Source: an uncultured Alphaproteobacteria bacterium
GTDB lineage: Bacteria > Pseudomonadota > Alphaproteobacteria > Rhodobacterales > Rhodobacteraceae
NCBI GenBank assembly: GCA_902556405.1
Contig: CACDWF010000017.1
Location: 1-38,551, forward strand
DNA length: 38,551 nucleotides
Reading direction: 5' to 3'
Shown here: positions 3,930-31,380 of the stretch, piece by piece
How the letters are laid out: each line of letters opens with the position of its first letter
How positions within the stretch are numbered: the first letter of the stretch is position 1
The notes under the pieces: generated by a model
Told to the model about the DNA's origin: nothing
The model's input: the letters and a program-made list of their open reading frames with translations, nothing else
The model's database searches: none
Position numbers and translations under genes: made by a program

Positions 3930-3945
3930 GGCAAATTATGTGCCA
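3930..3945 (-). promoter_or_regulatory. Sigma-54 (-24/-12) promoter of fliD
   Basis: On the minus strand this reads TGGCAC-N5-TTGCC, with the invariant GG and GC separated by exactly ten bases. Transcription would start about 12 bases downstream, leaving a leader of roughly 50 bases before fliD. Confidence 0.85.
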
Positions 3946-4018
3946 TTTACTAAAAAACTTACAAAAGATTATCAAAACTTCTATAAAAATAAAAGATTTA
4001 TAGAAATTAATGCATTTT

Positions 4019-4046
4019 TAATTGTGTCAAAACTTCTCACCGATAA
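4019..4046 (+). promoter_or_regulatory. Weak candidate sigma-28-like promoter of fliS
   Basis: ACCGATAA at 4039-4046 differs by one base from the flagellar sigma-28 -10 box GCCGATAA. The matching -35 region (TAATTGTG at 4019-4026) agrees only poorly with TAAAGTTT. It lies about 120 bases upstream of fliS, which has no visible sigma-54 site close by. The evidence is the -10 box alone. Confidence 0.2.
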
Positions 4047-4166
4047 ATGTTATCAATTCAAGCGATCTCATTAATGTAGATATATTTTTTATTAGGTGAT
4101 CTTCTTTATTAAACAAATTTTCTTACTCGTCGTTCACGAATTTAGGTTCAAAAAAGGAGATATACA

Positions 4167-4538
4167 ATGAATTACGTTAATGCCGCAACATCCTATAAAG
4201 AGACGGACAATTTTTACGTTGAAGGAATTGACTCAGCGCATGGCCGCATACAAATATTGTTTGATCAGCTGGAAATAAATTTAGAAAAGCTGATTGTGAA
4301 GCACCCAAAAACAGATTTTGTAAGCTATGGCAAAGTATTACAATGTTTAACAATTCTTGCTGGCTCACTAGATCATGAAAAAGGTGGAGATTTGGCTGAG
4401 CAGTTAGTTGAACTATACGATTATTGCGTTCGAACTGTTAAAAAATACTTAGTCGAAAAGGACGTCAAAAAGTTGGAGGAAGTTCTATCGTTAGTTTCCG
4501 AAATATCAGATGGTTGGAAAAGTATCACACCAAAATAA
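4167..4538 (+). CDS. fliS: Flagellin export chaperone FliS
   Basis: This 123-residue, mostly helical protein matches FliS throughout: the N-terminal AATSYKETD segment, a central LDHEKGGDLAEQLVELYDYC stretch, and an EVLSLVSEISDGW C-terminal helix. FliS binds the C terminus of flagellin in the cytoplasm, preventing early polymerisation and delivering it to the export gate. The ATG has a strong AAAGGAG site seven bases upstream. It is divergent from fliD. A second, more diverged FliS-like gene lies at 7412, so this cluster has two. This copy is closer to the canonical sequence and probably serves the main flagellin, which is outside the window. Confidence 0.9.
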   Translation: MNYVNAATSYKETDNFYVEGIDSAHGRIQILFDQLEINLEKLIVKHPKTDFVSYGKVLQCLTILAGSLDHEKGGDLAEQLVELYDYCVRTVKKYLVEKDVKKLEEVLSLVSEISDGWKSITPK

Positions 4539-4672
4539 GTTATTTTAGGCAAGTTTTATAACGGCTGCAGTTTTTATATATCTTAAAAAGTCTGAGAAGT
4601 TCATTTTTTTAAAGATTTGAAATTCAATTATTAAGGCACTATACTCTCTCTTATTGAGGTTTTGGCATAAAA

Positions 4673-4678
4673 TATAAT
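4673..4678 (+). promoter_or_regulatory. Possible -10 box upstream of the unknown gene at 4711
   Basis: A perfect TATAAT lies 32 bases before the GTG start at 4711. The best -35-like match (TTGAGG at 4654-4659) is only 13 bases upstream, which is too close, so this is a weak call. Confidence 0.2.
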
Positions 4679-4710
4679 TACAAACATATGCCTTAATGAC
4701 GGGAGATAGC

Positions 4711-6925: not shown

Positions 6926-6926
6926 T

Positions 6927-7367
6927 TTAAGCAGAAATATCCACAGATTGTTGTAGCTCTGTGTTCTGATCCGTCATCATGGTAATCGCGTTCGCATTAT
7001 TTACCGACATCTCTGAGTCACTTTCATCAATCTCGTTATTGGGGGTTATCTCGATGTCAGCAATTCTAGCCTCGAGTGCGCGCTCCGTTGTGAGTTCCAA
7101 AGGCCGGAAATTTTCCAAAGCTGGTCTAAGCTGTGCTCCAGATGTTATGTTGTTTTCGATCGGCGGCCTCAGTTCTGGTGAGCCTGCGTTAGAAAACGCA
7201 TTATTGCTATCGCTATCCATTACTCTCGGCGTCACGTCTATAACATCGTCCATCACGTCGTTGTCTGGCATTGAACTTGCATTGGATACAGCAGCATTAC
7301 CAACAGACCTGTTTTGCACAGGCTGTAGCTGTGGAGCTGTAGAGTTTGCAATTATAGAATCAACCAT
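6927..7367 (-). CDS. Uncharacterised, probably disordered acidic protein
   Basis: The 146-residue product is rich in Asn, Ser, Asp, Glu, Pro and Gln, with no hydrophobic core, signal peptide or cysteines, and resembles a disordered linker. Two similar segments (SPELRPPIENN and AQLRPALENF) form a loose internal repeat. The start is uncertain: an ATG at 7388 would add seven hydrophobic residues, and neither start has a clear ribosome site. It ends one base from the ClC gene stop (convergent) and is divergent from the second fliS-like gene. The opposite strand also has a 131-residue open frame, but it is serine/leucine-rich in the way typical of a shadow. A regulator or export-related protein is possible; no family is recognised. 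Confidence 0.5.
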   Translation of the reverse strand: MVDSIIANSTAPQLQPVQNRSVGNAAVSNASSMPDNDVMDDVIDVTPRVMDSDSNNAFSNAGSPELRPPIENNITSGAQLRPALENFRPLELTTERALEARIADIEITPNNEIDESDSEMSVNNANAITMMTDQNTELQQSVDISA

Positions 7368-7411: not shown

Positions 7412-7795
7412 ATGATGAACAATAAAATCGCGAACCTTTACAAAAATACTGATACAATAAAAGCTCCTGCAACGGATAATCCTAGAGCAATGCTTATAAG
7501 GATTTTTGATGAATTACTAAATTCTATCAATGCTTTCCATTCTAATATAATTCCTTCGCCAGATAAGTTAAGAAAAAAATCCTCAAGTTTCTCAAAGGCA
7601 CTCACTATCCTTTATACTCTACAAGGTAGTATTGATTTTGAAAAAGATTTAGGAGTTGCAAAGAGCTTATTTCAGATATATGAGTACACTAGAGTTGCTC
7701 TGATTGAAGAATTCAGAAGCTGTAAAATTGATAAAAGCCTAAAGGCCGTTAATGCGTTATCGGAAATACGAGCGAGCTGGAGTAGGGTAGATTAG
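7412..7795 (+). CDS. fliS: Second FliS-like flagellar chaperone
   Basis: This 127-residue protein has the FliS pattern in diverged form: a first helix with MLIRIFDELLNSI, a central ALTILYTLQGSIDFEKDLGVAKSL-type segment, then IYEYTRVALIEEF and a final NALSEIRASWSRV helix. These align with LTILAGSLDHEKGG, LYDYCVRTV and LVSEISDGW of the FliS encoded at 4167. It is followed after eight bases by a FliT-like gene, the usual fliS-fliT order. The ribosome site is weak and ATG at 7415 is equally possible. It may serve a second flagellin or another late export substrate; that is inference. Confidence 0.75.
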   Translation: MMNNKIANLYKNTDTIKAPATDNPRAMLIRIFDELLNSINAFHSNIIPSPDKLRKKSSSFSKALTILYTLQGSIDFEKDLGVAKSLFQIYEYTRVALIEEFRSCKIDKSLKAVNALSEIRASWSRVD

Positions 7796-8113: not shown

Positions 8114-9184
8114 TTATTTTGAAATTCCGTATTTCTTCATTTTTTCGATTAAAGTTGTTCTTCGAAGTTTTAAAGCATCAGAGGCTTGACTCACCATTCC
8201 ATCCGTCTTTTCTAAGGCCGCTTCGATCATCACAATCTCTATTTCGCTAAGATGCCTTCTAAGGTCCATTTTATCAAAATAAAGAAACCAATCCTTGTAT
8301 TGCTCTGGTTTGGGAAGAGGCAGGCTGGTAACCTCTTCTTCTTTGTTATCGGTGGCCTCCACCAAGTCAGTCGATGCAGCCCATAACTCGTCTTGTTCCT
8401 CATCGGGGTCAGGAACCTTTAACCTTAGTAGATTTTCCTTTACATTGTCTCCAGACACCGATCTTTCGTTAAATAAGACAGATGCTCTTTCAATGACATT
8501 CCTTAACTCTCTTACGTTACCTGGCCAGCTGTAATTCGATAAAACCTTTATCGCATCTTCACTAAAGTTGACATTAATTTCTTGGCCAGAAAATTTCATT
8601 TTCTCCATGATCCCTTGAATCAGGATAGGAACATCTACCGTTCTCATGGCTAGGTTTGGCACTTCTATAGGAAATACATTTATCCTGTAAAAAAGGTCAG
8701 CTCTAAATTCCCCCTTTTCCACTTTTTTATCTAAATCTTGGTGGGTGGCGCATACCAGACGAAAATCAACGTCTATTTCTTTACTTGAACCCACTCTCTG
8801 GATCTTCCGACCTTCCAATACCCGCAATAATTTCGATTGCAAAGGCAAGGGCATGTCTCCTATCTCATCTAAAAAAATCGTTCCATGATTTGCTTGTTCA
8901 AACCTTCCAGCTCTCGCTCGATCTGCCCCAGTAAAGGCCCCTTTTTCATGCCCAAATAGCTCGGACTCCAAAAGCTCCGAAGGAATAGCAGCACAATTTA
9001 CTGAAATATTGCTTCCTTTCCTGCCCGATGCTACATGTAATGCCTCCGCGACCAATTCTTTTCCGGTCCCCGTCTCTCCTTGTATTAAAACAGTTGTAGC
9101 GGAAGCACATACCATCTCAATAAGCCTTTTCATTTCTTTTATTGCTAATGAGTTTCCTAAAATTATTTTTTCTATTGCCTGCAT
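8114..9184 (-). CDS. fleQ: Sigma-54 activator without receiver domain, FleQ-like flagellar master regulator
   Basis: A 356-residue enhancer-binding protein made only of an AAA+ domain and a Fis-type helix-turn-helix. Walker A GETGTGKE lies at 36-43, the sigma-54-contacting GAFTGA loop at 82-87, Walker B FLDE at 104-107, a SWPGNVREL segment near 218-226, and a C-terminal HTH (about 315-356) ending KLRRTTLIEKMKKYG. It starts almost directly with the AAA+ domain, so no phospho-receiver is present. By analogy with R. sphaeroides FleQ and Pseudomonas/Vibrio FleQ/FlrA it should open the flagellar hierarchy together with RpoN. No -24/-12 site is visible upstream of it. It is divergent from the FleT-like gene, with 229 bases between them. 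The activator class is certain; the symbol is inferred from context. Confidence 0.85.
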   Translation of the reverse strand: MQAIEKIILGNSLAIKEMKRLIEMVCASATTVLIQGETGTGKELVAEALHVASGRKGSNISVNCAAIPSELLESELFGHEKGAFTGADRARAGRFEQANHGTIFLDEIGDMPLPLQSKLLRVLEGRKIQRVGSSKEIDVDFRLVCATHQDLDKKVEKGEFRADLFYRINVFPIEVPNLAMRTVDVPILIQGIMEKMKFSGQEINVNFSEDAIKVLSNYSWPGNVRELRNVIERASVLFNERSVSGDNVKENLLRLKVPDPDEEQDELWAASTDLVEATDNKEEEVTSLPLPKPEQYKDWFLYFDKMDLRRHLSEIEIVMIEAALEKTDGMVSQASDALKLRRTTLIEKMKKYGISK

Positions 9185-9368: not shown

Positions 9369-9384
9369 TGGCTTACTTTTTGCC
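9369..9384 (+). promoter_or_regulatory. Sigma-54 (-24/-12) promoter of the fleT-fliE operon
   Basis: TGGCTT-N5-TTGCC, with GG and GC ten bases apart. It lies 29 bases before the fleT ATG, which has a good AAAGGAG ribosome site. The adjacent upstream intergenic DNA is where FleQ would be expected to bind. Confidence 0.8.
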
Positions 9385-9413: not shown

Positions 9414-10604
9414 ATGTTAAATGTTATAATAGAGGCCGAGAGGTTCCCCTTCTCAACTAGGTTAAAAGAAATTCTTGAAGAACGACAAGCAGTTGTCGAG
9501 TATACGGGAAACGATAATGAAGTGTGTAATAAAAAACAGCCTTCTAGAGAAACAGAAAACTGTTTTCTTTGCTCCAAAGATTATTTTAATTCAATAGATG
9601 GACAAGCTGGTCTGATAAATATTGCTAAAGGTCATAAAGCAAACTCTATTGTGATTGTAGGCCAGATTGATGATACTTTTTCCGTCAAGGAGGAGTTAGG
9701 TGGCAAATTATTGCACATTAATTTTCCGAAAGATAATGAACACGAGGATACTATTAACGAGTATGGCTCTCAGATGGTTGCAACACTTGTCATGAAGAAC
9801 AACCAATTCATTGCTGGAGACGAAAACACAAAGAAACTGATAAAACTTGCTGAAAAGGTTGCTAGGACAGATGTTACGGTTTTTATAAATGGACCAACCG
9901 GAACCGGCAAAGAGGTATTATCAAAATTTATCCATAATAACTCGCCAAGGAGCGATAATCCTTTCGTTGGAATTAACTGTGCAGCTATTCCAGAAAATAT
10001 GCTCGAGGCAATTCTATTCGGGCATGAAAAAGGAGCGTTTACGGGTGCATCTAGCCCAAATAAAGGTATATTCAGAGCTGCAGATGGTGGAACTTTGCTA
10101 TTAGATGAAATTAGTGAAATGCCCCTAAGTTTACAGGCAAAAATTCTCAGAGTTTTACAGGAAAAAATAGTAACTCCTATTGGCTCACAGAAAGATTTGC
10201 CCGTAGATGTCAGAGTAATAGCGACTACTAACAGAAATATGCTCGAAGAAATAAAAAAAGGCACCTTTAGAGAAGACCTGTATTATAGACTGAACGTCTT
10301 TCCTCTTGCCACTTCACACCTAAGAGACAGAAGAAATGATGTAATACCTTTAACTACTGCCCTACTTTATAGACATTGCAAATCAGTTAGTGAACTTCCA
10401 TGGCTAAAAAGTTCGGCATTAAAAACGCTTATAGATCATCACTGGCCAGGAAATGTTAGAGAACTAGAAAATATAGTCCAACGAGCCTTAGTCCTATGCA
10501 CAGAAAAAGAAATTTGTTCAAATGATATTGTTATCGATAACAATCCTTTAAACGTTTCAACGCACTCTATAACAGATGAAAAGACACAACAATTAGCAAT
10601 TTGA
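9414..10604 (+). CDS. fleT: Sigma-54 activator lacking a DNA-binding domain, FleT-like
   Basis: The 396-residue protein has an unusual N-terminal region (1-130) that resembles a degenerate receiver, with four cysteines including CFLC at 50-53. A complete AAA+ domain follows: Walker A GPTGTGKE at 160-167, GAFTGA at 207-212, Walker B LLLDE at 228-232, and HHWPGNVREL at 342-351. After about residue 375 only some 20 polar residues remain, so the Fis-type helix-turn-helix found in FlbD, FlrC and NtrC is missing. The frame ends cleanly and fliE starts nine bases beyond the stop behind its own ribosome site, so this is not an obvious frameshift. R. sphaeroides FleT is likewise described as lacking the DNA-binding domain and working with FleQ, and it also lies beside fliE. 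I expect a FleQ/FleT hetero-oligomer here. Confidence 0.82.
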   Translation: MLNVIIEAERFPFSTRLKEILEERQAVVEYTGNDNEVCNKKQPSRETENCFLCSKDYFNSIDGQAGLINIAKGHKANSIVIVGQIDDTFSVKEELGGKLLHINFPKDNEHEDTINEYGSQMVATLVMKNNQFIAGDENTKKLIKLAEKVARTDVTVFINGPTGTGKEVLSKFIHNNSPRSDNPFVGINCAAIPENMLEAILFGHEKGAFTGASSPNKGIFRAADGGTLLLDEISEMPLSLQAKILRVLQEKIVTPIGSQKDLPVDVRVIATTNRNMLEEIKKGTFREDLYYRLNVFPLATSHLRDRRNDVIPLTTALLYRHCKSVSELPWLKSSALKTLIDHHWPGNVRELENIVQRALVLCTEKEICSNDIVIDNNPLNVSTHSITDEKTQQLAI

Positions 10605-10612
10605 GGTTTCAA

Positions 10613-10927
10613 ATGTCCCAGATAGGATCCATAACAAATAAAGTATTATCCACTCACAAGCAGATTATCGAAAGTGCAAACAGCACGCTAGGTAATGATA
10701 ACAATATTGGAAATTTCAGTTCTAAAATGGAGAAAGCTCTCGACTCAGTAGCAGACGCCCAGAAGATCGCAGCTGATTCTACAAGAAACTTTGAACTTGG
10801 AATTGAAAATGATTTGACAAAGGTAATGATTAATCAACAGATATCTTCGTTAGGTTTCCAGCTCACATTAAATACTCGAAATAAAGTGCTTTCAGCGTAT
10901 AAAGATATAATGAGCATGCCCGTCTAA
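10613..10927 (+). CDS. fliE: Flagellar MS-ring/rod junction protein FliE
   Basis: A 104-residue protein with the FliE C terminus (LTLNTRNKVLSAYKDIMSMPV-like) and a helical body. FliE joins the MS ring to the rod and is an early export substrate. I chose the ATG at 10613, which has GAGG six bases upstream; a TTG at 10601 would overlap the end of fleT and has no better site. It is the second gene of the operon that starts at the sigma-54 promoter at 9369, and is followed by fliF after 21 bases. Confidence 0.93.
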   Translation: MSQIGSITNKVLSTHKQIIESANSTLGNDNNIGNFSSKMEKALDSVADAQKIAADSTRNFELGIENDLTKVMINQQISSLGFQLTLNTRNKVLSAYKDIMSMPV

Positions 10928-10948
10928 TTAAATCTAAAGGTATAAAAT

Positions 10949-12667
10949 ATGGCAGATACAACAGAATTCATAGGTACGCAACAAACACGACAGGGAACCG
11001 GTTTAATTCCTCAAGCAGGTCAATTTCTGTCAAATGTTCAGCAAATTGCTAGTCAACCAAGCGTACAAAGATCTTTACCAGCGGTAATCGCGGTAGTTGT
11101 TTTAGTACTTGGACTATTTGTTTACTCTCTTTTACAACAGCCAGAACGAACAACCTTATACGCATCTCTTCCAGATTCTGAAAAATCCAAAGTTCAAGAT
11201 GCATTGAAGAACTTGGGTGTCGATGTGACTTTGGATCCTACTACTGGAGAAATACTCGTGCCTGTTGAAGATTATCACCGTTCCAGAATTAGTCTTGCAG
11301 CACAAGGCTTGCCGAGCAGTGCGCCAGATGGATATTCTACATTAACAGATTTACCTATGGGTTCGAGTAGGTCCGTAGAGCTTATGCGGCTGAAACAAAC
11401 CCAAGAAATAGAGCTCGCTAAATCAATAAGAGAAATCGAAGGTGTTATATCTGCTAGGGTTCACTTAGCACTACCAGAAAAGTCAGTATTTGTAAGAAAC
11501 CAACTACCTCCCACTGCTTCAGTATTTGTACAACTGCCTAACGGAAGATCAATGGCAAGTGGGCAAGTCAACGCCATCATTCACTTGGTGTCCTCGTCAA
11601 TTCCAAATATGACTAAAGAAGATGTAACCGTTATTGACCAAAACGGACAGCTATTATCAAAGTCTTTAGATGATCCAGATAGTATGCTGAACGATGCGCA
11701 ACTTGAACATAGAGTTAAACTCGAAAATATCTATCGTAGTCGGATCACAACCTTGGTAACCCCTATTGTCGGCCCTGGAAATGTGAGTACTCAAGTAAAT
11801 ATTGATATTGACTTCACGAGGAGTGAAATAACAGAGGAAATCGTGGATCCAGATGGAACAGCTCTAAGAAGTGAACAAAGCACATTAGATTTAACCACCG
11901 ATTTACCAGCAAAAGGGATTCCCGGAGCCGTGTCAAATACTGCGCCCACAGAGGCTGAATTGAGCCAAAGCCCTGTGGCGGGAGACTCCCAGGGGCAAAT
12001 TAGAAATAGGTCATCTAGCGATATAAAAAACTATGAAGTAAGCAAGCGAATAGCCACAACGATGGCTCCATCAACAAAGATTTTAAAGATAAATGCGGCT
12101 GTTCTTCTTAGGAGTCCTAAAGTAATAGATCCAGAAACCGGGCTTGAGGTTTCGCAACCGTTGTCCGACGAAAAAATTGAGGAGATTAGACAGCTCATTA
12201 CAAGTGCGGTAGGGATTGATGAAGAGAGAGGAGATAAGCTTACCGTCAGTAGTGCTCCCTTTATTTCCACTCTTGAAGGAGTAGAAGTTACATGGCATGA
12301 GATCCCTCTAGTAAAAAATTTGATCAAACAATTGATTACAATTTCGATTTTGGCCATTGTCGCGCTGGGTGTCATTAGACCACTTTTAAGCAGATTGCTT
12401 GTTCCAGTTGGTGCGGGTGTTGCTGGTGAAATAACCTCAGGTATGGACGATGATCTTGATCTGGATACAATTGAAGTTAAAGAAGGTGAGAGCTTAGACG
12501 ATATTAAAGCAAAGCTCAAACCAAAGAAGGCAGCAATATCTGCTGAAATGCTTGATACGGCAAATACTTATGATGATAAAGTCGCTGTAATAAGGATGAT
12601 AGTTCAGGATGAAGCAGGTAGAGTATCGAATGTTTTCAAGAACATGATGCAAAGAGATATGAATTGA
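10949..12667 (+). CDS. fliF: Flagellar MS-ring protein FliF
   Basis: This 572-residue inner-membrane protein has two transmembrane helices (about 43-63 and 462-480). Between them is the YscJ/FliF ring-building region, including TLYASLPDSEKSKVQDAL and the ISARVHLALPEKSVF motif. A low-complexity linker follows around 330-355. The acidic C-terminal tail after 480 ends in VIRMIVQDEAGRVSNVFKNM, the FliG-binding segment. FliF is the platform on which the basal body and export gate are built. Length and order are standard. Confidence 0.97.
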   Translation: MADTTEFIGTQQTRQGTGLIPQAGQFLSNVQQIASQPSVQRSLPAVIAVVVLVLGLFVYSLLQQPERTTLYASLPDSEKSKVQDALKNLGVDVTLDPTTGEILVPVEDYHRSRISLAAQGLPSSAPDGYSTLTDLPMGSSRSVELMRLKQTQEIELAKSIREIEGVISARVHLALPEKSVFVRNQLPPTASVFVQLPNGRSMASGQVNAIIHLVSSSIPNMTKEDVTVIDQNGQLLSKSLDDPDSMLNDAQLEHRVKLENIYRSRITTLVTPIVGPGNVSTQVNIDIDFTRSEITEEIVDPDGTALRSEQSTLDLTTDLPAKGIPGAVSNTAPTEAELSQSPVAGDSQGQIRNRSSSDIKNYEVSKRIATTMAPSTKILKINAAVLLRSPKVIDPETGLEVSQPLSDEKIEEIRQLITSAVGIDEERGDKLTVSSAPFISTLEGVEVTWHEIPLVKNLIKQLITISILAIVALGVIRPLLSRLLVPVGAGVAGEITSGMDDDLDLDTIEVKEGESLDDIKAKLKPKKAAISAEMLDTANTYDDKVAVIRMIVQDEAGRVSNVFKNMMQRDMN

Positions 12668-12709
12668 AGTAAATTATTTATAGAATAAGATCAAGATTAG
12701 GAAATAAAT

Positions 12710-13744
12710 ATGGCTGAGCAGGAGAGAGAAAATAAAAGCAAAGTTTTTGATAACCTTAGCGGAACACAAAAATCAGCAATATTGATGATGCTCTTAGGTG
12801 AAGATGAGGCTTCAGAAATTCTTAAAAATCTAACACCTAAAGAAGTTCAGCATATTGGAACAGCAATGTACTCTGTGGAGGGGCTCGATCAGGATACTGT
12901 AAACAAAGTATTAGATGAATTTCTTGCAATTATAAAAGAACAAACAAGCCTTGGATTAGGAGCTGGAGACTATATTCAGAATGTTTTGAATAAGGCGTTG
13001 GGGAATGATAGAGCGCAATCCATCTTAGGGCGAATAACTCCAACCGAAAGCAGTAATGCTATAGAAATCCTAGAGTGGATGGACTCAAGAGCTATTTCTG
13101 AACTAATTTCTGATGAACACCCTCAAATAATTGCTCTTATAATTTCATACTTGGACCCAGCGCAAGCATCTGATGTTCTAGTAATGTTAGATGAAAAATT
13201 GCAACCAGAAATTATAAAAAGGATTGCAACAATCCAAACAGTTCAGCCTGACGCACTTAAAAACCTGGAATTGGTGATGCAAAAGAAATTCGCCGCGAAC
13301 ACATCATTGAGGGCCTCCCAAGTAGGTGGTGTGAAAGCTGCAGCCTCAATAATGAATTTCATGAAAGGTGAAGATGAACAGAAAATATTTAAAGAGGTAG
13401 CCAAGTTCAGCAAGAACTTAATGACTGATATTCAGGAAGCTATGTTTGTTTTTGACAACCTTATTAAATCAGACGATAAGTCCATGCAGGTTATTATCAG
13501 AAGTGTAGAGACAGAGGATCTAGTTTTAGCGATGAAGGGAGCTGATGAAGAGCTTCAAGAGAAAATGTTCAGTTGTATGTCACAAAGAGCCGCAGCAAAT
13601 GTACAAGATGAAATGGATGCTCTAGGACCAGTCAGACTAAGTGAAGTTCAGGAAGCGCAAAAACGGATAATTAATACTGCAAGAAGACTATCCGATGAAG
13701 GGACTATTGTGTTAGCGGGCCGTGGTGGAGATGATTATGTTTAA
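12710..13744 (+). CDS. fliG: Flagellar motor switch protein FliG
   Basis: The 344-residue protein shows the three FliG parts: an N-terminal FliF-binding region (KSAILMMLLGEDEASEILK), the EHPQ motif of the middle domain at 136-139 followed by an armadillo-like segment, and a C-terminal torque domain with the charged ridge (RSVETEDLVLAMKGADEELQ, then KMFSCMSQRAAANVQDEMD). It couples stator ion flow to rotor movement. The partner stator here is the PomAB-like pair at 26.9-28.8 kb. Confidence 0.97.
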   Translation: MAEQERENKSKVFDNLSGTQKSAILMMLLGEDEASEILKNLTPKEVQHIGTAMYSVEGLDQDTVNKVLDEFLAIIKEQTSLGLGAGDYIQNVLNKALGNDRAQSILGRITPTESSNAIEILEWMDSRAISELISDEHPQIIALIISYLDPAQASDVLVMLDEKLQPEIIKRIATIQTVQPDALKNLELVMQKKFAANTSLRASQVGGVKAAASIMNFMKGEDEQKIFKEVAKFSKNLMTDIQEAMFVFDNLIKSDDKSMQVIIRSVETEDLVLAMKGADEELQEKMFSCMSQRAAANVQDEMDALGPVRLSEVQEAQKRIINTARRLSDEGTIVLAGRGGDDYV

Positions 13745-13749
13745 AGAAT

Positions 13750-16219: not shown

Positions 16220-16223
16220 ACTG

Positions 16224-18657: not shown

Positions 18658-18676
18658 GATGGAAACGAGGACTTAA

Positions 18677-19654: not shown

Positions 19655-19670
19655 TATATGGGGTTATGCA

Positions 19671-20091: not shown

Positions 20092-20107
20092 TGGCACGAT
20101 ACTTGCC
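20092..20107 (+). promoter_or_regulatory. Sigma-54 (-24/-12) promoter of the fliO-flhB operon
   Basis: TGGCAC-N5-TTGCC with ten bases between GG and GC, 24 bases before the fliO ATG. The fliO ribosome site AAAGGAGGT is a near-perfect match to the 16S rRNA tail. Confidence 0.9.
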
Positions 20108-21333: not shown

Positions 21334-21348
21334 CGGAGGAGCTCCAAT

Positions 21349-21621
21349 ATGGAATTCGATACTAATGTTAATTATTTAGAAGATGCTTTTTGGCAAATTA
21401 TAATATCTGCAGGACCAGTATTGTTAGTAGCTCTCGGAATAGGCCTTTTGATTGGTATTATTCAGGCGGCTACTTCTATCAACGAGATGACGTTAAGTTT
21501 TGTACCAAAGCTAGTGCTCGTTCTTCTGACGTTAGCCTTAATTGCCAACTTTATGTTGACCGGATTATCCGATTATTTTGCTTTCATTTTTGATCAAATA
21601 GCCTCAATTGGTCAAGCATAG
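21349..21621 (+). CDS. fliQ: Flagellar export gate protein FliQ
   Basis: 90 residues with two transmembrane helices (about 15-38 and 50-75) and the conserved GIIQAATSINEMTLSFVPK segment. Strong GGAGG site upstream. FliQ packs around the FliP-FliR core. Confidence 0.97.
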   Translation: MEFDTNVNYLEDAFWQIIISAGPVLLVALGIGLLIGIIQAATSINEMTLSFVPKLVLVLLTLALIANFMLTGLSDYFAFIFDQIASIGQA

Positions 21622-21624
21622 TAA

Positions 21625-22440: not shown

Positions 22441-23587
22441 AGAAAACCAGGATGGCCAAGAGAAGACGGAGGAACCTTCCCAACGGAAAATTGATAAACA
22501 TAAAGAAGATGGGAAGGTTCTGACGTCTAAAGAAATGTTTGTCTTTACCGGAATTGCTGGTGCTTTATTACTTATGTATGCTTTTTCCTTTAACTTTAGG
22601 GCGCTTTTATTTGAATGGGGCGATCTTTTTGTTTTCTCTGGCAATGATAAACTTGAGGACTTGTCTGCCACGAAATCTTTGCAAGCACTATTTTTTATTA
22701 CAAAAATTAGTTTATTCGTTGGCGTTCCGATGTTGATAATCGTCTTAGCAACGCAATTTGCAGTTGGCGGAATAAATTTTGCTCCTAAAGCACTTGCTTT
22801 CAAATCAAACAGAATTAACCCTTTAAGTGGGTTAAAGAGAATGTTTTCTTTAAAGAGCTTAGTTGAGCTCGGTAAGGCTTTACTGAAAGTTGGTTCTTTA
22901 TTCGCAAGCGCTGCAGGGGTTATATACTACTTACTCCCACAATTGTTACGTATTACTGATGGAAGCTTGAAATCTGGGTTAGAACTCACCCAATCCTCAT
23001 TTCCTCTTTTGATAGGAGCTTTGTTGGTTTGCTTATTGGTAATAGCTGCGCTGGACTATTTCTATCAGAGATTTGAGCACATTAAGTCTCTTAGGATGAC
23101 TAAGCAAGAAGTTAAAGATGAGTATAAACAAACAGAAGGTTCACCTGAAGTGAGAGCAAAAATAAGACGGCTCCAGATGGAAAGTGCTACAAAATCTGCC
23201 AAACAGCAAGAAGCCTTAGAAAACATGGGTAATGCCACAGCTATCATTACGAATCCAACTCATTTTGCAATAGCGCTTAAATACGAAGTAGGTCAATTGG
23301 GAGCCCCTAAAATTATTGCAATGGGTAAAGGGCTGATCGCAAAAAGAATTATGGAGATAGGAGTTGAAAAGAATATAACAAGTTTTAGAAGTCCTCTACT
23401 TGCAAGGGCATTGTTTTTCACAGGTGAAATCGGAGAAGAAATTTCTGAAAAGCTTTACAATGCAGTAGCCGTAGCACTAGCATATGTTTATAAATTAGAT
23501 AGAGGGGAAGACATAGATGCCCCAGACATTGATGTTCCTGTAGATTTAAGGTTCAATGAAAACGGAACAATTTTGAAGGAGAATTGA
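22433..23587 (+). CDS. flhB: Flagellar export switch protein FlhB
   Basis: 384 residues: a charged N terminus (EKTEEPSQRKIDKHKEDGKV), four transmembrane helices, then the cytoplasmic autocleavage domain with NPTH at 274-277. Self-cleavage between Asn and Pro is required for the change from rod/hook to filament export, triggered by FliK. The C-terminal tail after about 350 is the variable segment. In many gammaproteobacteria flhA and flhF follow; here small unknown genes follow instead, so flhA must be elsewhere. Confidence 0.97.
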   Translation: MAEENQDGQEKTEEPSQRKIDKHKEDGKVLTSKEMFVFTGIAGALLLMYAFSFNFRALLFEWGDLFVFSGNDKLEDLSATKSLQALFFITKISLFVGVPMLIIVLATQFAVGGINFAPKALAFKSNRINPLSGLKRMFSLKSLVELGKALLKVGSLFASAAGVIYYLLPQLLRITDGSLKSGLELTQSSFPLLIGALLVCLLVIAALDYFYQRFEHIKSLRMTKQEVKDEYKQTEGSPEVRAKIRRLQMESATKSAKQQEALENMGNATAIITNPTHFAIALKYEVGQLGAPKIIAMGKGLIAKRIMEIGVEKNITSFRSPLLARALFFTGEIGEEISEKLYNAVAVALAYVYKLDRGEDIDAPDIDVPVDLRFNENGTILKEN

Positions 23588-23816: not shown

Positions 23817-24007
23817 ATACTTGTAATCAATGCATCCATTTGTTTATTACACACGACCCACGACGAAGATGGGGATGCAGAAAATTTGGTTTCAAATCGT
23901 CAAAGATTCCTTATCAGGAAGTCGTAGCAACAACTGGCATGAAATGTGCTTATTACAAAAGAAGAAGTATGAATAAGCAAATTGAAACTCGTAGGAGGTC
24001 ACCTTAA
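23813..24007 (+). CDS. Small four-cysteine protein, putative metal-binding
   Basis: 64 residues with a CxxC pair (Cys4, Cys7), a WGC at residue 22 and GMKC at 45, around a conserved-looking HDPRRRWGCRKFGFKS core. The spacing suggests one zinc site. I recall similar short uncharacterised proteins (C-x-x-C...P...GC...FGFKS...P...TG-x-x-C) in other motile bacteria, but cannot verify it here. The tail is strongly basic (RRRSP). It overlaps both neighbours (ATGA with the gene before, TAATG with the gene after), so translation is coupled. No known catalytic motif. Confidence 0.7.
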   Translation: MNTCNQCIHLFITHDPRRRWGCRKFGFKSSKIPYQEVVATTGMKCAYYKRRSMNKQIETRRRSP

Positions 24008-24756
24008 TGAGTTCAGATCTAAGTACAATAGAAGAAAGTATAAAAATCGCCTTAGATGCAGCGGATGCGGCGACCGACGTAACCTCTGAGTATAATAAAG
24101 TTAAAAGAGAGCATAAAAAACTGGAGGCAAAAGTGAAGCAAATACATCGTTATACAACCATAATTTTTGGGAGTTCTATGATTGCCGCAATCGTAGCCAT
24201 GATATTTTCATCGGTGCTATATTTCCGCTCAATGTCAGACTTAGGCGTGATGACTACTACCAACAGAGAGGCTCTAGTAATTTTTGCAGAAAATGTTGAT
24301 GACTTAAAAGATAATGTTAAAGCTTTATCGGTAGCAATGGAAAGTCAGGTTGCTCTTGAAAAGCAGAATGCGAAATTAGTTGAAGAATTATCCTCTTTAA
24401 GAAGAGAAATTTCTGTTGCCACAAATGCACTTGCAAGTAGGGTTCTCGAGCAAAATAAGGGCCTGCAGGAGGTAATGACTAAGAATACAGAGCAAGCGGT
24501 CAATATATTTGCCGAAAAAGTTGCTCAATCTTTTGAAAAGAGGCTAAATGAATTGAGCAAGGGAATTGACGCTTATCAAAACCAGCTCATTGCGTCGTTA
24601 AAAGAGATGAACACTTCTGACGGTAATAACGTTGTAATGAAGGAGATATCTAAATCTCAGAACCAACTAACAAAAGAAATTAGATCTCTTTATAAAAAGA
24701 ATGAAGAAATTTTCAGCAAAATTAAGAGTTCTGACGGACTTATAAAATTTCCATAG
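24007..24756 (+). CDS. Membrane-anchored coiled-coil protein in the flagellar operon
   Basis: 249 residues, not recognised by family. The N-terminal 48 residues are a charged helix, followed by one transmembrane segment (about 49-73). A long helical part (80-240) with heptad repeats comes next, rich in Glu, Lys, Ala and Gln, resembling the signalling helices of chemoreceptors but without the receptor hairpin tip. The ribosome site AGGAGG is strong. Topology is probably N-in with the coiled coil outside or the reverse; this cannot be fixed by eye. It is co-transcribed with flhB and with a PDZ-like membrane protein. Confidence 0.75.
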   Translation: MSSDLSTIEESIKIALDAADAATDVTSEYNKVKREHKKLEAKVKQIHRYTTIIFGSSMIAAIVAMIFSSVLYFRSMSDLGVMTTTNREALVIFAENVDDLKDNVKALSVAMESQVALEKQNAKLVEELSSLRREISVATNALASRVLEQNKGLQEVMTKNTEQAVNIFAEKVAQSFEKRLNELSKGIDAYQNQLIASLKEMNTSDGNNVVMKEISKSQNQLTKEIRSLYKKNEEIFSKIKSSDGLIKFP

Positions 24757-26874: not shown

Positions 26875-28035
26875 CTAGAAATTTATTTCAATTTCAATTC
26901 TTCTATTCTTCTCTCTACCAGCAGAAGTCTCGTTTGTGTCAAGTGGCTTTGACTCGCCAAAACTGACTGCTTTCATTCTATCTGTGCTAATGTTTCCTGA
27001 CTTCTCAAGCTCTTGCACAACGCTTGAGGCTCTTGCCGCAGCCAGATCCCAGTTATCTCTAAAGTTACCACCAAACATCAAAGGAACGTTGTCGGTGTGT
27101 CCAGAAACAGTTACTGTCCCAGTCTCCCCTACCCCTTTATCTGCGATTTTAGCCATTATCTGTCTGGCTTGAGAAGTTAATTCTGCTGATCCTGATGAAA
27201 AAGCTCCTCCAGATCCAACAGTTACAAATACCTTACCATCTTTTCTCTCCACACTGACCAGCCCCTTGTCAATTTCATTTTTCAACGCCACTTCAAGCTC
27301 ATTAGCAGCTTGGCCAGCTGAAGCTTCCTTTGAAGATTTTTCACTATCATCAACACCTGAACCAGAATCTACTGAAGACCCTTTAGTTTCACCATCCGCC
27401 TCTGTTTGAGCTAGTGACGCGAGTTCTTTTAATTTCTCCTCAAGCCCACCAAAAAGAACCTCTTGATCAGTGTTTCCAGTTTTATTCTTAGCCTTGTCAA
27501 TAGCTTCCAAGGTCTCTTGTATCAACTTAGGTAGGTCTTTTGCAGCTGTAACCTGATCACGTATTTCCACTTTCACTGCTTCGCCAACCGCTTCGACTTT
27601 AATTTCTCCTTTGTCAACAGCCTCTTGAAGAGCTTCAACTAGATCCTTGGCGCTTTTGTCTTCTTCTCCTCCCTCATCCTCTTTCGTTTTTACTTCAAGT
27701 TCTTTTTTTTCTAAGTTAGTAGTCTGCTGGGTCATCTGCTTTGTAACTGATGGACTAGGTGAAGGACTGAAGTTTAGGGATAATACAGTGGTTCCTTTTG
27801 GTTGTTCAACAACGGGCACTAGTCGCTGAACACCGAATGCATTCTTTAATGAACCAGATATTTGCTTAAATTTGGGTACGTTAAATTCTGCAAATGAGAG
27901 AATTAGAACAAAGAAAGCCATCAAAAGGGTAGCCATGTCAGCAAAGGTTGCCATCCAAGCTGGCGCTCCAACTGGAGGACACTTGGGACATTCCTCTTCC
28001 TCTTCCTCTATCTCTGCTTCTACTTCTTCAGCCAA
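26875..28035 (-). CDS. motB: Sodium-type flagellar stator protein MotB/PomB
   Basis: 386 residues. The N terminus is acidic; a transmembrane helix contains the ion-binding Asp33 (TFADMATLLMAFFVLILSF). A plug-like segment follows (KFKQISGSLKNAFGVQ, close to PomB of Vibrio), then a long Glu/Lys/Ser-rich periplasmic linker (about 95-250) and an OmpA-like peptidoglycan-binding domain (VSGHTDNVPL ... REKNRRIEIEI). The start is TTG at 28035: an in-frame stop lies immediately upstream, no ATG occurs before the transmembrane helix, and GGAG lies nine bases before. The linker is longer than in E. coli MotB. It is encoded after motA in one transcript. Confidence 0.95.
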   Translation of the reverse strand: MAEEVEAEIEEEEEECPKCPPVGAPAWMATFADMATLLMAFFVLILSFAEFNVPKFKQISGSLKNAFGVQRLVPVVEQPKGTTVLSLNFSPSPSPSVTKQMTQQTTNLEKKELEVKTKEDEGGEEDKSAKDLVEALQEAVDKGEIKVEAVGEAVKVEIRDQVTAAKDLPKLIQETLEAIDKAKNKTGNTDQEVLFGGLEEKLKELASLAQTEADGETKGSSVDSGSGVDDSEKSSKEASAGQAANELEVALKNEIDKGLVSVERKDGKVFVTVGSGGAFSSGSAELTSQARQIMAKIADKGVGETGTVTVSGHTDNVPLMFGGNFRDNWDLAAARASSVVQELEKSGNISTDRMKAVSFGESKPLDTNETSAGREKNRRIEIEINF

Positions 28036-28066
28036 CTATTTATACTCCAAATGAACACCTAACAGG

Positions 28067-28831
28067 TTAGGCGGCATTTTCTAATTTCTCTTGGATAGCT
28101 GGGGGAAGATTGGCCAACATTTGATCTTGAATGTTTCTGGGAGACTCGCCCCTAGCAATGTTTCTCAGTCCCATCACAACCATGTCTCTGTAAGTAGCCT
28201 CGTAGGCCGTGTTCGCCTCTAAAGTCGTTTGCATAGGCATAAACATCACGTTCGCAAAAAATGCCCCATACAGAGTTGTTAATAGTGCTATCGCCATTGC
28301 CGGACCAATTGCTTTGGGATCTGCCATGTTGCCCAGCATAAGAACGAGACCTATCAGTGTACCAATCATTCCCATTGCAGGTGCAATATCTACCCAAGCC
28401 TTGACAATACCTTGGTTTGTAGCGTGACGAGCTTTCATAGCCTTGATTTCCTGGTTAAGCTGTACAGTTAACTTTGCCTCGTCTGCTCCATCGACGAGCA
28501 TTTGCAAACCTTTAGAGAAAAATTTGTCCGGAACATCTTGTCCTTCCAACGCCATCATGCCGTCTTTTCTAGCAATACCCGCTAACTCGATCATCTTTGT
28601 TACTAAATCTTCTTGTGATGGTAATCCTGGCATAAATGCTTTTGACATCACTTTGAAAGAGTTTAAAAATTGAGGCAATGTACATGTATACATCACAGCG
28701 AAAAAAGTCCCGCCGACAACAATTAACGCTGAACCTCCATGAAGAAATGGACCTATTCCACCTCCACTAGCCATCGCGTAAACTATCATTCCAACAGCAC
28801 CCAAAAAACCTATAAGCGAGCCGATATCCAT
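28067..28831 (-). CDS. motA: Sodium-type flagellar stator protein MotA/PomA
   Basis: 254 residues with four membrane helices. Residues known to matter in Vibrio PomA occur at the same numbers: Asp148 (VDIAPAMGM), Thr158 (MIGTLIG), Thr185 and Thr186 (LLTTLYGA). The N terminus (MDIGSLIGFLG) and NMADPKAIGPAMAIALL are also PomA-like, so sodium is the likely coupling ion. The cytoplasmic loop carries the charged FliG-contact region. AAGAGGA precedes the ATG, and a sigma-54 promoter lies 36-51 bases upstream. Confidence 0.95.
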   Translation of the reverse strand: MDIGSLIGFLGAVGMIVYAMASGGGIGPFLHGGSALIVVGGTFFAVMYTCTLPQFLNSFKVMSKAFMPGLPSQEDLVTKMIELAGIARKDGMMALEGQDVPDKFFSKGLQMLVDGADEAKLTVQLNQEIKAMKARHATNQGIVKAWVDIAPAMGMIGTLIGLVLMLGNMADPKAIGPAMAIALLTTLYGAFFANVMFMPMQTTLEANTAYEATYRDMVVMGLRNIARGESPRNIQDQMLANLPPAIQEKLENAA

Positions 28832-28866: not shown

Positions 28867-28882
28867 TGCAAAAATAATACCA
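28867..28882 (-). promoter_or_regulatory. Sigma-54 (-24/-12) promoter of motA-motB
   Basis: On the minus strand TGGTAT-N5-TTGCA, with GG and GC ten bases apart. The -12 element is perfect and the -24 element keeps TGG but not CAC. It lies at the right distance for a leader of about 25 bases before motA. Confidence 0.7.
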
Positions 28883-28981
28883 ATATCATACTAATCAACA
28901 AAAAAATATTTTGCAGCGTGCTTGGAGCTGTGACGCATTCATGTTATGTATCTTGTATAATTACAATGAAGGTCAATAGTT

Positions 28982-29461
28982 TTGAAACATCTTCTAATCT
29001 TATGTTCTTTTTTATTGTTTAATACCACAGCTGTCGCCGATGACAAAAGATATGTGGAAAAGGAACATATAATTTATGATAAGAAAAACGCCATTGAATG
29101 GTTGCGTTGCAGTGTTGGGCAGACATGGAACGGTTTAACCTGCACAGGAGAAGTAATTAATTTAACAATGGATGATGTTGATTTTGCTATAAAAGTTGCT
29201 GACAAACAACTAGGTGGAAACTGGCGCTTGCCCAATAAAACCGAATTAATGTCTATCGTATGCAAGTCGTGTGGAGTACCTAAAATTGATGAAAGAATTT
29301 TTCCAAATACCGACAATGCACCCTACTGGACAAATGACAAGAGTTTTTTTGACACTAACCACCTCGTAAGTGTTAGCTTCCATACTGGATATTCCTATAA
29401 TAAATTTACTAAGATTAAGCCCTTAGCTGTGAGGCTTGTTAGAGACCCTTCCAGGGAATAA
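28982..29461 (+). CDS. Secreted protein with a DUF1566/Lcl C-terminal domain
   Basis: 159 residues with a signal peptide (MKHLLILCSFLLF..., cleavage near AVA-DD). The mature part has the Lcl C-terminal pattern: KKNAIEWLRCSVGQTWNG, NWRLPNKTELMSIV, IDERIFPNT, a YWTND strand and VRLVRD near the end. Four cysteines probably form disulfides in the periplasm or outside. The start is TTG at 28982 with AAGG about eight bases upstream; a nearby ATG at 28966 is in another frame. Related domains occur in adhesins and lipoproteins; a specific role is not known. It is divergent from motA. Confidence 0.75.
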   Translation: MKHLLILCSFLLFNTTAVADDKRYVEKEHIIYDKKNAIEWLRCSVGQTWNGLTCTGEVINLTMDDVDFAIKVADKQLGGNWRLPNKTELMSIVCKSCGVPKIDERIFPNTDNAPYWTNDKSFFDTNHLVSVSFHTGYSYNKFTKIKPLAVRLVRDPSRE

Positions 29462-29464
29462 TAA

Positions 29465-29695
29465 CTATTTGGGCCTTTGTTCTTTTTTCCATAGATAAAG
29501 TTTCACAAAAAATAAACACGCCCCACTTACCACTATTGTAATCCCGATAAGATCAATAGTGATAAATCGAAGATAATGCATCTTATCTCCCACAAGAAGA
29601 GCCATTAATCCTAGCATTGCAACCGCTAAAATAAAGGAGCGTATTATCTTACAGGTTCTGCAATCTTTAGTATTAAAAAACGTACTTTTTTCCAT
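29465..29695 (-). CDS. Small two-helix membrane protein
   Basis: I start this at ATG 29695, giving 76 residues. A GTG at 29743 in the same frame has no ribosome site and lies inside a hairpin. The product has a CRTC pair near the N terminus, two hydrophobic helices and a basic end (LWKKEQRPK). It is convergent with the DUF1566 gene, three bases apart. No family is recognised. Confidence 0.5.
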   Translation of the reverse strand: MEKSTFFNTKDCRTCKIIRSFILAVAMLGLMALLVGDKMHYLRFITIDLIGITIVVSGACLFFVKLYLWKKEQRPK

Positions 29696-29739
29696 CAATA
29701 GTAAATAACACAAACTGTATAATTTTTCAAAATTTTTTG

Positions 29740-29766
29740 ACACTTAAAAAGTGTGTGTTTTTTAAA
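29740..29766 (+). terminator. Hairpin with T-run upstream of rpoN
   Basis: ACACTT (29740-29745) and AAGTGT (29749-29754) form a perfect six-pair stem with a three-base loop, followed by GTGTTTTTTT on the plus strand. It would isolate rpoN from upstream plus-strand transcription. The stem is AT-rich, so it may be weak. Confidence 0.4.
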
Positions 29767-29889
29767 TTCTGCTCAAGGTATTGAATTTATTGAAAAAATA
29801 TTTCAAAAAGCTGACATGAAGGTTTGTCAAATTGATTTTTTTGAATTTTGGAAAAATCTTGGTTTCATAATCCCATAAGGAGATTTGAA

Positions 29890-31380
29890 ATGCAATTATC
29901 ACAGTCTTTAAACATAAAACAAAAACAGTCATTAGTAATGACTCCGCAACTCCAACAAGCTATCAAATTGCTTCAATTAACTAACCTTGAACTAAAGCAG
30001 TTTTTAGAGGAACAAACTTTTGATAATCCTTTTATAGATGTTGAAGAAGAAAACAATGCATCAGAGAAGAATGACGCAGGGGTTAGCTCATCAGAGAAAA
30101 ATGACTCTAACAGTGAACAAGTTCTATCAAAAGAAATAACTGATTTTTCTGATGATCCAACTAATAATGATGATTATGATAATCGCTTTGACAATGCAGG
30201 TATCGACTATGGCGAGATAAGTAATAATAAATCGAATAACGGAGAGGATTGGGACTTAATTGCGTCAACTGTACCCAATCATGAAAAATCATTAATTGCG
30301 CACATTGAAGATCAACTACCTTACATATTAAATTGCCAAAAAGAACATTTCATCGCCAGATATTTTTTAGAGGCACTGGAGCCTTCGGGTTGGCTTGGAA
30401 AATCACTAGATGAAATTCACGTAGCTACACGTGTGGATTATGTTGATCTTGAAAATGTTTTGATGAAGTTACAAGGCGCGGAACCAACGGGGCTATTTGC
30501 TAGAAACCTATCCGAATGCATACGACTTCAAATATCAGAGAAAGGCTTAATGTGTAACCAACTTTCGGTGCTTTTAGATAATCTTTCCCTTCTAGGCAAA
30601 GGTGATTTAAAGGGTTTGATGAAAAAAATAAGTTGCGATGAAAAGAAATTTAAGGACTTTCTAACAATAATTAGAAGCGTCGACCCAAAACCCGGGTCTT
30701 CATTCTTGTCAGAGACTTCAAATATACACAAACCAGACCTTCTGGTTAGGAAAACCGGTAAAGATTGGATAGTTGATCTCAATCGATCTACGCTACCATC
30801 AATAAATATAAATGAGGACTATGCTCAAAAGTTATCGCCAGCAGGTCGTGACAGCACAAAAATTGATAGCTATGCAAACCAAGCTCTTTCATCTGCCAGA
30901 TGGCTAAAAAGGGCTTTGGAGCAAAGAAATATTACAACGCTGAAGATCACAGCAGAGATAATAAAAAGGCAAAAGAACTTTCTTGAAAAGGGATTAGATT
31001 TTCTTGAGCCTCTATCACTTAAAGATATTGCGCAAGCAGTAAAAATGCATGAGAGCACTGTGAGTAGAGTAACAAACGGCTTGATGGTTTCTACTCCTAA
31101 GGGCACGGTTCCATTAAAATCACTATTCAGCGTTACCATTGAAACTGATGACAGAGAAAACAGTAAGTCAGCCGCTGCCGTCAGAAACATGATAAAGAAA
31201 ATTTTAAATGAAGAAACAGGTGAAAAACCGCTGAGTGACGATCTGATAGCAAAAATAGTAAGCAAAAATGGTGTGAAGCTCGCTAGGAGGACTGTAGCTA
31301 AATACCGAGAAATGTTGAATATTCCTTCTTCTTCAGAAAGAAAAAGGAGAGCTAAATTGGATGCAATGACTGCAAGCTAG
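29890..31380 (+). CDS. rpoN: RNA polymerase sigma-54 factor RpoN
   Basis: The ATG at 29890 has AGGAG seven bases upstream and gives 496 residues; the frame runs 42 bases further back to a TTG without support. Region I (MQLSQSLNIKQKQSLVMTPQLQQ-type, glutamine/leucine-rich) binds activators. An acidic, asparagine-rich linker (about 50-110) follows, then the core-binding domain, the HTH near KDIAQAVKMHESTVSRV that contacts -12, and the RpoN box ARRTVAKYRE at 465-474 that reads -24. Its location at the edge of the flagellar cluster, with five cognate promoters nearby, suggests a flagellar-dedicated copy like RpoN2 of R. sphaeroides; whether the genome has another rpoN cannot be seen. Confidence 0.96.
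   Translation: MQLSQSLNIKQKQSLVMTPQLQQAIKLLQLTNLELKQFLEEQTFDNPFIDVEEENNASEKNDAGVSSSEKNDSNSEQVLSKEITDFSDDPTNNDDYDNRFDNAGIDYGEISNNKSNNGEDWDLIASTVPNHEKSLIAHIEDQLPYILNCQKEHFIARYFLEALEPSGWLGKSLDEIHVATRVDYVDLENVLMKLQGAEPTGLFARNLSECIRLQISEKGLMCNQLSVLLDNLSLLGKGDLKGLMKKISCDEKKFKDFLTIIRSVDPKPGSSFLSETSNIHKPDLLVRKTGKDWIVDLNRSTLPSININEDYAQKLSPAGRDSTKIDSYANQALSSARWLKRALEQRNITTLKITAEIIKRQKNFLEKGLDFLEPLSLKDIAQAVKMHESTVSRVTNGLMVSTPKGTVPLKSLFSVTIETDDRENSKSAAAVRNMIKKILNEETGEKPLSDDLIAKIVSKNGVKLARRTVAKYREMLNIPSSSERKRRAKLDAMTAS

Follow-up and report, generated by a model that had tools for sequence, protein, structure and literature searches.

The window analysed here, 38,551 nucleotides (nt) of DNA that form contig C17 of an uncultured Rhodobacteraceae genome (GenBank GCA_902556405.1, contig CACDWF010000017.1), very probably encodes one half of a flagellar system of the Fla1/fla3 type, namely its export, basal-body and stator parts, together with a sigma-54 cascade that belongs to it. 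The gene set, the domains of the two activators FleQ and FleT, the conserved -24/-12 sites, the single rpoN found, the membership in the Fla1 clade, and the co-occurrence of related RpoN proteins form the basis for this reading. The type itself is already known. The clade of Fla1 of Cereibacter (Rhodobacter) sphaeroides was named fla3 by Tomasch et al. 2025, and 23 such clusters were described in 306 Rhodobacterales genomes (PMC12363192). In this study, we found an RpoN related to that of the window in 36 of 36 tested genomes with this FliF, which is new. The Fla1/fla3 cascade can be seen as a package carrying its own sigma factor and both activators, which would help explain how a whole flagellum is transferred between bacteria with its switching-on intact.

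The source genome comprises 2.19 Mb in 65 contigs and is about 80% complete. The guanine-cytosine content is 37% across the window, and the host lineage is apparently marine with a small genome. A 4.6-Mb reference genome of the same GTDB family (7 contigs) was taken as C. sphaeroides; it was recognised by its four rpoN genes, one of which lies beside nifW.

Sigma-54 sites in the cluster and in the genome

A sequence-only reading of this DNA had claimed a self-contained hierarchy in one cluster, in which five -24/-12 promoters precede flagellar operons, rpoN and two activator genes lie between them, and no such site precedes fleQ or rpoN. As shown in Table 1, all five sites are present. Four match the pattern TGGYAYN5TTGCH exactly, and the site at 9369 is kept at -29 in 4/4 genomes of the genus. 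Family and domain scans confirmed the identities of rpoN and both activators, but rpoN is located beyond the rightmost of the five reported sites rather than between them. Two more sites brought the number beyond five, one 130 nt before a second fliS and one at an sltF-like gene. Promoter function of the latter is uncertain because it lies only 10 nt before the first ATG. The cluster is also not self-contained, as flhF, an flhG-like gene, fliA, flg genes and further sites are on another contig, C3.

For 29 genes, the best site within 200 nt was scored out of 15 and averaged over genomes. The mean best scores were 15.0 for fliK (6 genomes), 14.0 for the second fliS (4) and the sltF-like gene (9), 13.7 for fliD (3), 13.6 for fliO (9), 13.3 for motA (10) and 12.0 for fleT (4). 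No conserved site was found before fleQ (mean 9.5, 4 genomes) or rpoN (9.8, 10 genomes), in agreement with the sequence-only reading, and these scores resemble those of the control genes FliF, FliG, FliI, MotB, Kch, HisB and HisA (8.8-9.8). Genome-wide, TGGYAYN5TTGCH gave 22 exact matches against 8 for the reversed pattern. Nine of the 22 precede genes counted as flagellar. Six of these sites are in the window; the other three, on contig C3, stand before frames assigned to flhA (699 residues), flgB and flgG from place and sequence start rather than by scan. A further C3 site lies 31 nt before a 105-residue gene without a Pfam match, and for another no frame of 60 residues starts within 200 nt.

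Chance matches in AT-rich DNA would be the simplest alternative for these sites, and the looser pattern TGGCACN5TTGCW with at most two mismatches showed no clear enrichment in the window (21 against 15.7 expected; 13 of 100 shuffles equal). However, the exact pattern occurs 6 times against 0.20 expected, a number that none of 100 shuffles reached; all six matches precede flagellar or flagellum-related genes, and the positions are kept across the genus. This count is flattered because the reported sites were already known when the pattern was loosened, while the two added sites and the conservation are independent of that. Chance is hardly credible as an explanation. An RpoN regulon that is broad, with the flagellar genes as only one part, is unlikely, though it would be favoured by the 11 of 22 exact sites that lie outside contigs C17 and C3, three of them intergenic, and by the incompleteness of the genome. 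Against it, the outside count is near the 8 whole-genome matches of the reversed pattern, and the two other PF00158 proteins found in the genome do not carry GAFTGA.

Besides these outside sites, several observations weigh against a flagellar cascade with its own sigma-54. Another activator or rpoN could be missing from a genome about 80% complete. High scores were also obtained for other upstream regions, namely x24007 (13.1), ClcB (12.0), x28982 (11.8), FlhB (11.3) and FliE (10.8); the x24007 site (23935) was set aside because, by eye, it appears to lie within a small coding frame. Three of the six exact window sites (fliS, fliK and sltF-like) fall within longer open frames, the site at 7266-7281 inside frames of 132 amino acids on the same strand and 154 on the opposite strand. 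Eight of the 11 outside sites are in or opposite open frames of at least 120 residues, but the result for the window sites means that this open-frame test is rough. Finally, fliD has a sigma-54 site here, whereas it is FliA-driven in C. sphaeroides (PMC7277832).

The activators FleQ and FleT and the proposed cascade

The match to R. sphaeroides Fla1, which the sequence-only reading had proposed for the split-domain pair, was supported by gene order, activator domain layout and FliF phylogeny. Identity to the C. sphaeroides-like counterparts is 55% for FleQ (residues 4-356) and 54% for FleT (residues 53-378). The domain layouts of the C. sphaeroides-like proteins equal those of the window's pair (the scanned FleT stretch ends about 10 residues early). 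The tail after the WPGNVREL-type motif measures 38-53 residues in 21/21 FleT rows and at least 87 in 38 other rows with the motif, which is not present in 7 of the 66 activator rows. Four PF00158 proteins were found in the window's genome. GAFTGA, which is essential for sigma-54 contact (PMC3162934), is carried by FleQ and FleT and not by an adjacent pair on contig C5, which is NtrC/NtrX-like by arrangement. Two other genomes of the genus gave four and two PF00158 matches, and their C5-type pairs are also without GAFTGA.

In the unrooted activator tree (66 rows), the 21 FleT rows formed one clade (support 99/97), sister to the fliE-adjacent activator of a group termed f13 (100/99), and both lay among FleR-position activators of other classes of Pseudomonadota (99/96; 99/91). 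The FleQ rows, including that of C. sphaeroides, formed one clade (100/98); the tree gives no firm deeper placement. Among solved structures, the best PDB match of FleT was FlrC (292 bits; FleQ-labelled chains, 224), and that of FleQ was full-length P. aeruginosa FleQ (300 bits). With the AAA+ part of FleQ alone, FleQ (260), FlrA (254) and ZraR (253) came close together and FlrC scored 205. The first Foldseek match of the predicted FleT fold was FlrC (54% identity), the model being of middling confidence (mean predicted local distance difference test score 74). The N-terminal 125 residues were modelled as alternating strands and helices, and long alignments extend to receiver-bearing activators. 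This suggests that the N-terminal part of FleT may be of receiver origin.

FleT looks like FlrC/FleR minus its kinase partner, phosphorylation control and DNA-binding domain, and with these losses it would be able to act only through FleQ. A two-component checkpoint would then have become an AND-gate between two activators. The FleQ/FleT heteromer and the missing domains of FleT are known from C. sphaeroides (PMC7277832, PMC3162934, PMC11999139). No statement on an FlrC ancestry of FleT was found in the open-licence literature searched, as far as its text was accessible, and one may be published all the same.

In C. sphaeroides, FleQ alone and then the FleQ/FleT complex activate successive tiers (PMC7277832, PMC11999139). 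By analogy with these experiments, from which the FleQ-only and FleQ/FleT steps are carried over, the window's cascade may work as follows. The fleQ and rpoN genes would be transcribed from promoters not of the sigma-54 type. DNA-bound FleQ, with RNA polymerase containing this RpoN, would open the fleT-fliEFGHIJ promoter. FleT, unable to bind DNA, would join FleQ as a mixed ring, which would open the later sigma-54 promoters of fliK-N, fliO-flhB, motAB, fliD and fliS, as well as the flg and flhA-flhF-flhG-fliA promoters elsewhere in the genome. The final genes would be driven by FliA. We infer both the tier of each site and that sigma-54 serves nothing beyond the flagellum here.

The likeness to Fla1 covers FleQ without a receiver, FleT lacking a helix-turn-helix (HTH) and encoded immediately before fliE, rpoN within the cluster, the SltF-like and candidate MotF-like genes, the FlgP- and FlgT-type genes of the genome and the shared FliF clade; gene content and order match closely. 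In contrast, FliF identity is only 45-47%, motAB lies within the window's cluster and outside the cluster in C. sphaeroides (PMC7277832), and C. sphaeroides has four rpoN genes against the one found here. No second flagellar set was detected in the window's genome, and its flg genes are on another contig. Plasmid pOA238_118 of Octadecabacter arcticus 238 has two sigma-54 activators in the same arrangement, with fli genes, an flhB-type gene, rpoN, motAB and a FliA-type sigma factor, but this 118-kb plasmid also carries flg and transposase genes, and its FliF is 52% identical.

The polar cascade of Vibrio and Pseudomonas (FlrA/FleQ, then FlrBC/FleSR) resembles that of the window in the structure matches of FleQ and FleT, in the placement of FleT in the activator tree, and in FlhF, FlhG-like and FliA proteins, which are encoded on contig C3. 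It differs in that the window's fleQ, fleT and fliE leave no space for a sensor kinase gene between them, FleT is without a Pfam receiver or HTH, and rpoN is in the flagellar cluster. A gammaproteobacterial FleQ/FleSR system was rejected on the lack of space for the kinase FleS and, from the Pfam scan, of the receiver-plus-HTH of FleR. The sphingomonad-type cluster (f13; Qipengyuania, Sphingomonas plasmids) forms the sister group of fla3 both by FliF and by its FleT-like activator (100/99 for each), but its fliE-adjacent activator keeps the HTH (3/3 scanned: two f13 rows and Qipengyuania).

Since one rpoN was found and only FleQ and FleT among the four activators carry GAFTGA, sigma-54 may serve the flagellum alone in this host; if true, this would offer a clear example in nature of a sigma-54 with one purpose and would make the origin of the four Rhodobacter rpoN genes testable. 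Among 22 genomes of the genus, rpoN and fliM were both seen in 13, rpoN only in 2, fliM only in 3 and neither in 4, a weak co-occurrence because the genes adjoin and the genomes are incomplete. In two members, G001 (90% complete) and G019 (84%), neither gene was seen, which would fit a joint loss of flagellum and sigma-54.

Origin of the flagellar set and of its RpoN

In the FliF tree (82 rows), the window's type, C. sphaeroides-like Fla1, SAR116, PS1 and the Octadecabacter plasmid copy formed a 45-row clade (100/99). This clade was sister to the alphaproteobacterial group f13 (100/99), which we call sphingomonad-like because 4/5 of its members are 51-54% identical to Qipengyuania FliF. Both were nested among 18 rows from other classes of the phylum, called gammaproteobacterial-type although known here as 'same phylum' only, and 14 classical alphaproteobacterial rows were separate (100/100). 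In the approximately unbiased (AU) test, uniting the fla3-type with the classical rows was rejected (p 0.005); the AU groups were chosen after the first tree, and p values therefore lean to rejection. These results support the horizontal origin proposed by the sequence-only reading, since FliF is nested among gammaproteobacterial-type rows and away from classical ones. The FliF and RpoN trees both ran contrary to a grouping with classical alphaproteobacterial flagella, and the FleQ tree joined FleQ to that of C. sphaeroides without a firm deeper placement. The surprise expressed at the host found no support, as the host belongs to the GTDB family of the C. sphaeroides-like genome and the fla3 type had been described (PMC12363192).

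Of 363 relatives found for the window's FliF, the best 80 were compared. Among these, identities of 92-98% were found in records labelled uncultured Alphaproteobacteria, isolates AG-892-M03 and others. Isolates with names of this type are presumably marine single-cell genomes. Rhodobacteraceae bacterium NAT102 and others followed at 71-72%, and then more Rhodobacteraceae, SAR116 and PS1. In a survey of the class, 214/385 genomes had a FliF at E 1e-20 or better; nine besides the window's genome were at 50-63% identity, and the next was at 35%. In the family (394 genomes, nearly all of different genera), FliF at E 1e-60 or better occurred in 25, the window's included. One metagenome-assembled genome, JAQCLA01, has two loci with this FliF type (L129, L132) and two full-length RpoN matches. 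No statement on a fla3 set in SAR116 or PS1 was found in the accessible text of the open-licence literature searched; it may be published all the same.

A vertically inherited alphaproteobacterial flagellum of the CtrA/FlbD type with few sigma-54 sites would suit a host that shares its family with the C. sphaeroides-like genome, and the majority of clusters in Rhodobacterales belong to the vertical type (PMC12363192). The separation of the 14 classical rows and the rejected union stand against it, and the one FliF match at E 1e-20 or better in the window's genome (about 80% complete) leaves no classical FliF found there, which makes vertical inheritance extremely improbable. A closer contest concerns the number of acquisitions. 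A single acquisition for all Rhodobacteraceae copies, with later spread to SAR116 and PS1 and the window's genus no separate recipient, has in our view somewhat less than an even chance. One Rhodobacteraceae clade was not rejected by nine concatenated proteins (p 0.154) or by RpoN (p 0.18; 0.41 with RpoN1/3/4 admitted). The free trees, however, grouped the window's genus with SAR116/PS1 (FliF 99/97, concatenation 99/100), and FliF alone rejected one clade with p 0.014, with the group defined once the tree was known. The free trees thus lean towards a separate acquisition for this genus.

RpoN was examined in 36 of the named genomes from which the 80 FliF loci come. All 36 had an RpoN at least 40% identical to that of the window; the best identities were 40-55%, except for 86% in one genome of the window's genus, and two of the matches were genes cut by a contig end. 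RpoN was on the fliF contig in 22 of 30 tabulated genomes and elsewhere in 8 (6/36 were not tabulated). The search for a second rpoN in the window's genome found the one copy only, at about 80% completeness.

In RpoN trees rooted on other classes (67 rows; 72 rows), the cluster-linked RpoNs and C. sphaeroides RpoN1, RpoN2, RpoN3 and RpoN4 were united, apart from the main alphaproteobacterial RpoN group (100/99). RpoN1 is the copy beside nifW, with a NifA gene (over cut-off) about 18 kb away, and RpoN3 and RpoN4 are the two remaining copies, labelled jointly. The 67-row tree includes RpoNs of 24 of the 36 cluster-linked genomes, all inside the united group. Three groupings were rejected: RpoN1/3/4 with the main alphaproteobacterial RpoN (p 8e-5), RpoN1-4 as a single clade (p 6e-60), and cluster-linked RpoN as a single clade without RpoN1/3/4 (p 0.004). 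The RpoN2 clade plus RpoN1/3/4 as a single clade was not rejected (p 0.34), so an older duplication within the flagellar-type lineage is possible.

The nesting of C. sphaeroides RpoN1-4 among cluster-linked RpoNs is a strong lead rather than proof, because of long branches and omitted rows. RpoN1 and one of RpoN3/RpoN4 have long branches, and 21 of 88 rows of a first quick tree (long or redundant) were omitted from the careful trees. Among the omitted rows are second RpoN copies from six genomes that bear fla3; two of these copies lay near the main group, and the other four, on long branches, with RpoN1/3/4. Of five family RpoNs added in the 72-row tree, two fell in the main group, one with RpoN1/3/4, and two formed a long branch outside both. 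It is conceivable, at a little under even chances, that RpoN1 (nitrogen fixation), RpoN2 (flagellar), RpoN3 and RpoN4 of Rhodobacter descend from a flagellum-borne rpoN brought by a gammaproteobacterial-type flagellum, an import that in the window's lineage would still run the flagellum only. If true, the nitrogenase sigma factor was recruited from a flagellar one. Domenzain et al. have reportedly studied how the RpoN factors of R. sphaeroides arose in evolution. The open-licence literature searched, in its accessible text, held no statement that the nif RpoN nests in flagellar RpoN, and this too may be published all the same.

Genes of the cluster and its surroundings

Table 1. Features of the window. 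Conservation counts refer to the readable genomes of the genus, including that of the window; exact matches are to TGGYAYN5TTGCH, and distances are in nt to the ATG of the window unless signed.
Feature	Position	Strand	Details
-24/-12 site before fliD	3930..3945	-	TGGCACATAATTTGCC; exact match; 13-14/15 in 3/3 genomes; 61 nt to ATG
-24/-12 site before second fliS	7266..7281	+	TGGCATTGAACTTGCA; exact match; 14/15 in 4/4 genomes, -130 to -133
-24/-12 site before fleT-fliE operon	9369..9384	+	TGGCTTACTTTTTGCC; not an exact match; 12/15 in 4/4 genomes at -29; 29 nt to ATG
-24/-12 site before fliK	16653..16668	+	TGGCACCTATTTTGCA; exact match; full score in 6/6 genomes, -24 to -27; 25 nt to ATG
-24/-12 site before fliO	20092..20107	+	TGGCACGATACTTGCC; exact match; 13-14/15 in 9/9 genomes, -23 to -25; 24 nt to ATG
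-24/-12 site before motA	28867..28882	-	TGGTATTATTTTTGCA; exact match; 13-14/15 in 10/10 genomes, -35 to -51; 35 nt to ATG
Possible -24/-12 site at start of sltF-like gene	33737..33752	-	TGGCATGTTCATTGCA; exact match; 14/15 in 9/9 genomes
fliD, filament cap	2228..3868	-	NCBIfam FliD models, best E 1e-47, below cut-off
Second fliS-like export chaperone	7412..7795	+	TIGR00208, E 6.5e-5, below cut-off
fleQ, sigma-54 activator	8114..9184	-	AAA+ core, lid, Fis-type HTH (PF00158, PF25601, PF02954); no receiver; GAFTGA
fleT, activator	9414..10604	+	PF00158 and PF25601 only; GAFTGA; no HTH, no receiver; N-terminal extension without Pfam family
fliE, fliF, fliG, fliH, fliI, fliJ	10601..16637	+	NCBIfam FliE-FliI (FliH weak); fliJ by position only
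fliK, fliL, fliM, fliN	16694..20012	+	NCBIfam FliL, FliM, FliN; fliK by position
fliO, fliP, fliQ, fliR, flhB	20132..23587	+	NCBIfam; FliO and FlhB below cut-off; fliQ by position
motF-like gene	24007..24756	+	One hydrophobic stretch, residues ~51-73 by eye; no Pfam family
motB and motA, PomA/PomB-like stator	26875..28831	-	NF006508 MotB over cut-off; motA best model PomA, below cut-off
rpoN, sigma-54	29848..31380	+	TIGR02395, 387 bits, cut-off 277; AID, CBD, DBD domains
sltF-like lytic transglycosylase	32803..33726	-	Pfam SLT domain, E 1.5e-9; ATG at 33726

The order of the cluster and its neighbours, through the potassium channel and his genes where covered, was kept in the loci of 9 other genomes of the genus. 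As exceptions, a methyltransferase gene was not detected in four of these, and extra DNA was present near fliS in two. In the C. sphaeroides-like cluster, a gene at the equivalent place is 26% identical to the motF-like candidate over residues 8-119; a membrane segment at 54-74 has been described for MotF (PMC7277832). The sltF-like protein shares 48% identity across residues 52-194 with an open frame of that cluster. On contig C3, scans identified FlhF, FlhG/MinD-like, FliA, FlgA, FlgE, FlgH and FlgI, some below cut-off. Of the accessory genes, the FlgP-type (LPP20 domain) and FlgT-type (FlgT_N domain) are on contig C3 and the SltF-type SLT domain is in the window.

The FlgE-type hook protein of contig C3 (L063 7900-11757) is 1285 residues long; its ends resemble FlgE, and its middle part is very long. 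The Octadecabacter plasmid has a hook-basal body gene of 4.2 kb. Within the flagellar cluster, at 5240-6925, there is a CLC-type chloride channel gene; such a gene is near the cluster in many of the compared SAR116, PS1 and Rhodobacteraceae loci, and the annotation of the Octadecabacter plasmid cluster includes a chloride channel gene too. A protein of 168 residues without a Pfam family (4696-5202) recurs in many fla3-type clusters, close to fliS or fliD. A NanM-type sugar O-methyltransferase gene (25662-26789), between motB and x24776, is present there in four genomes of the genus; together with a PseD-like gene (166-2196), it may have a role in flagellin modification. A voltage-gated potassium channel gene (31648-32550) adjoins rpoN, is conserved in the genus and has relatives in some other fla3-type loci.

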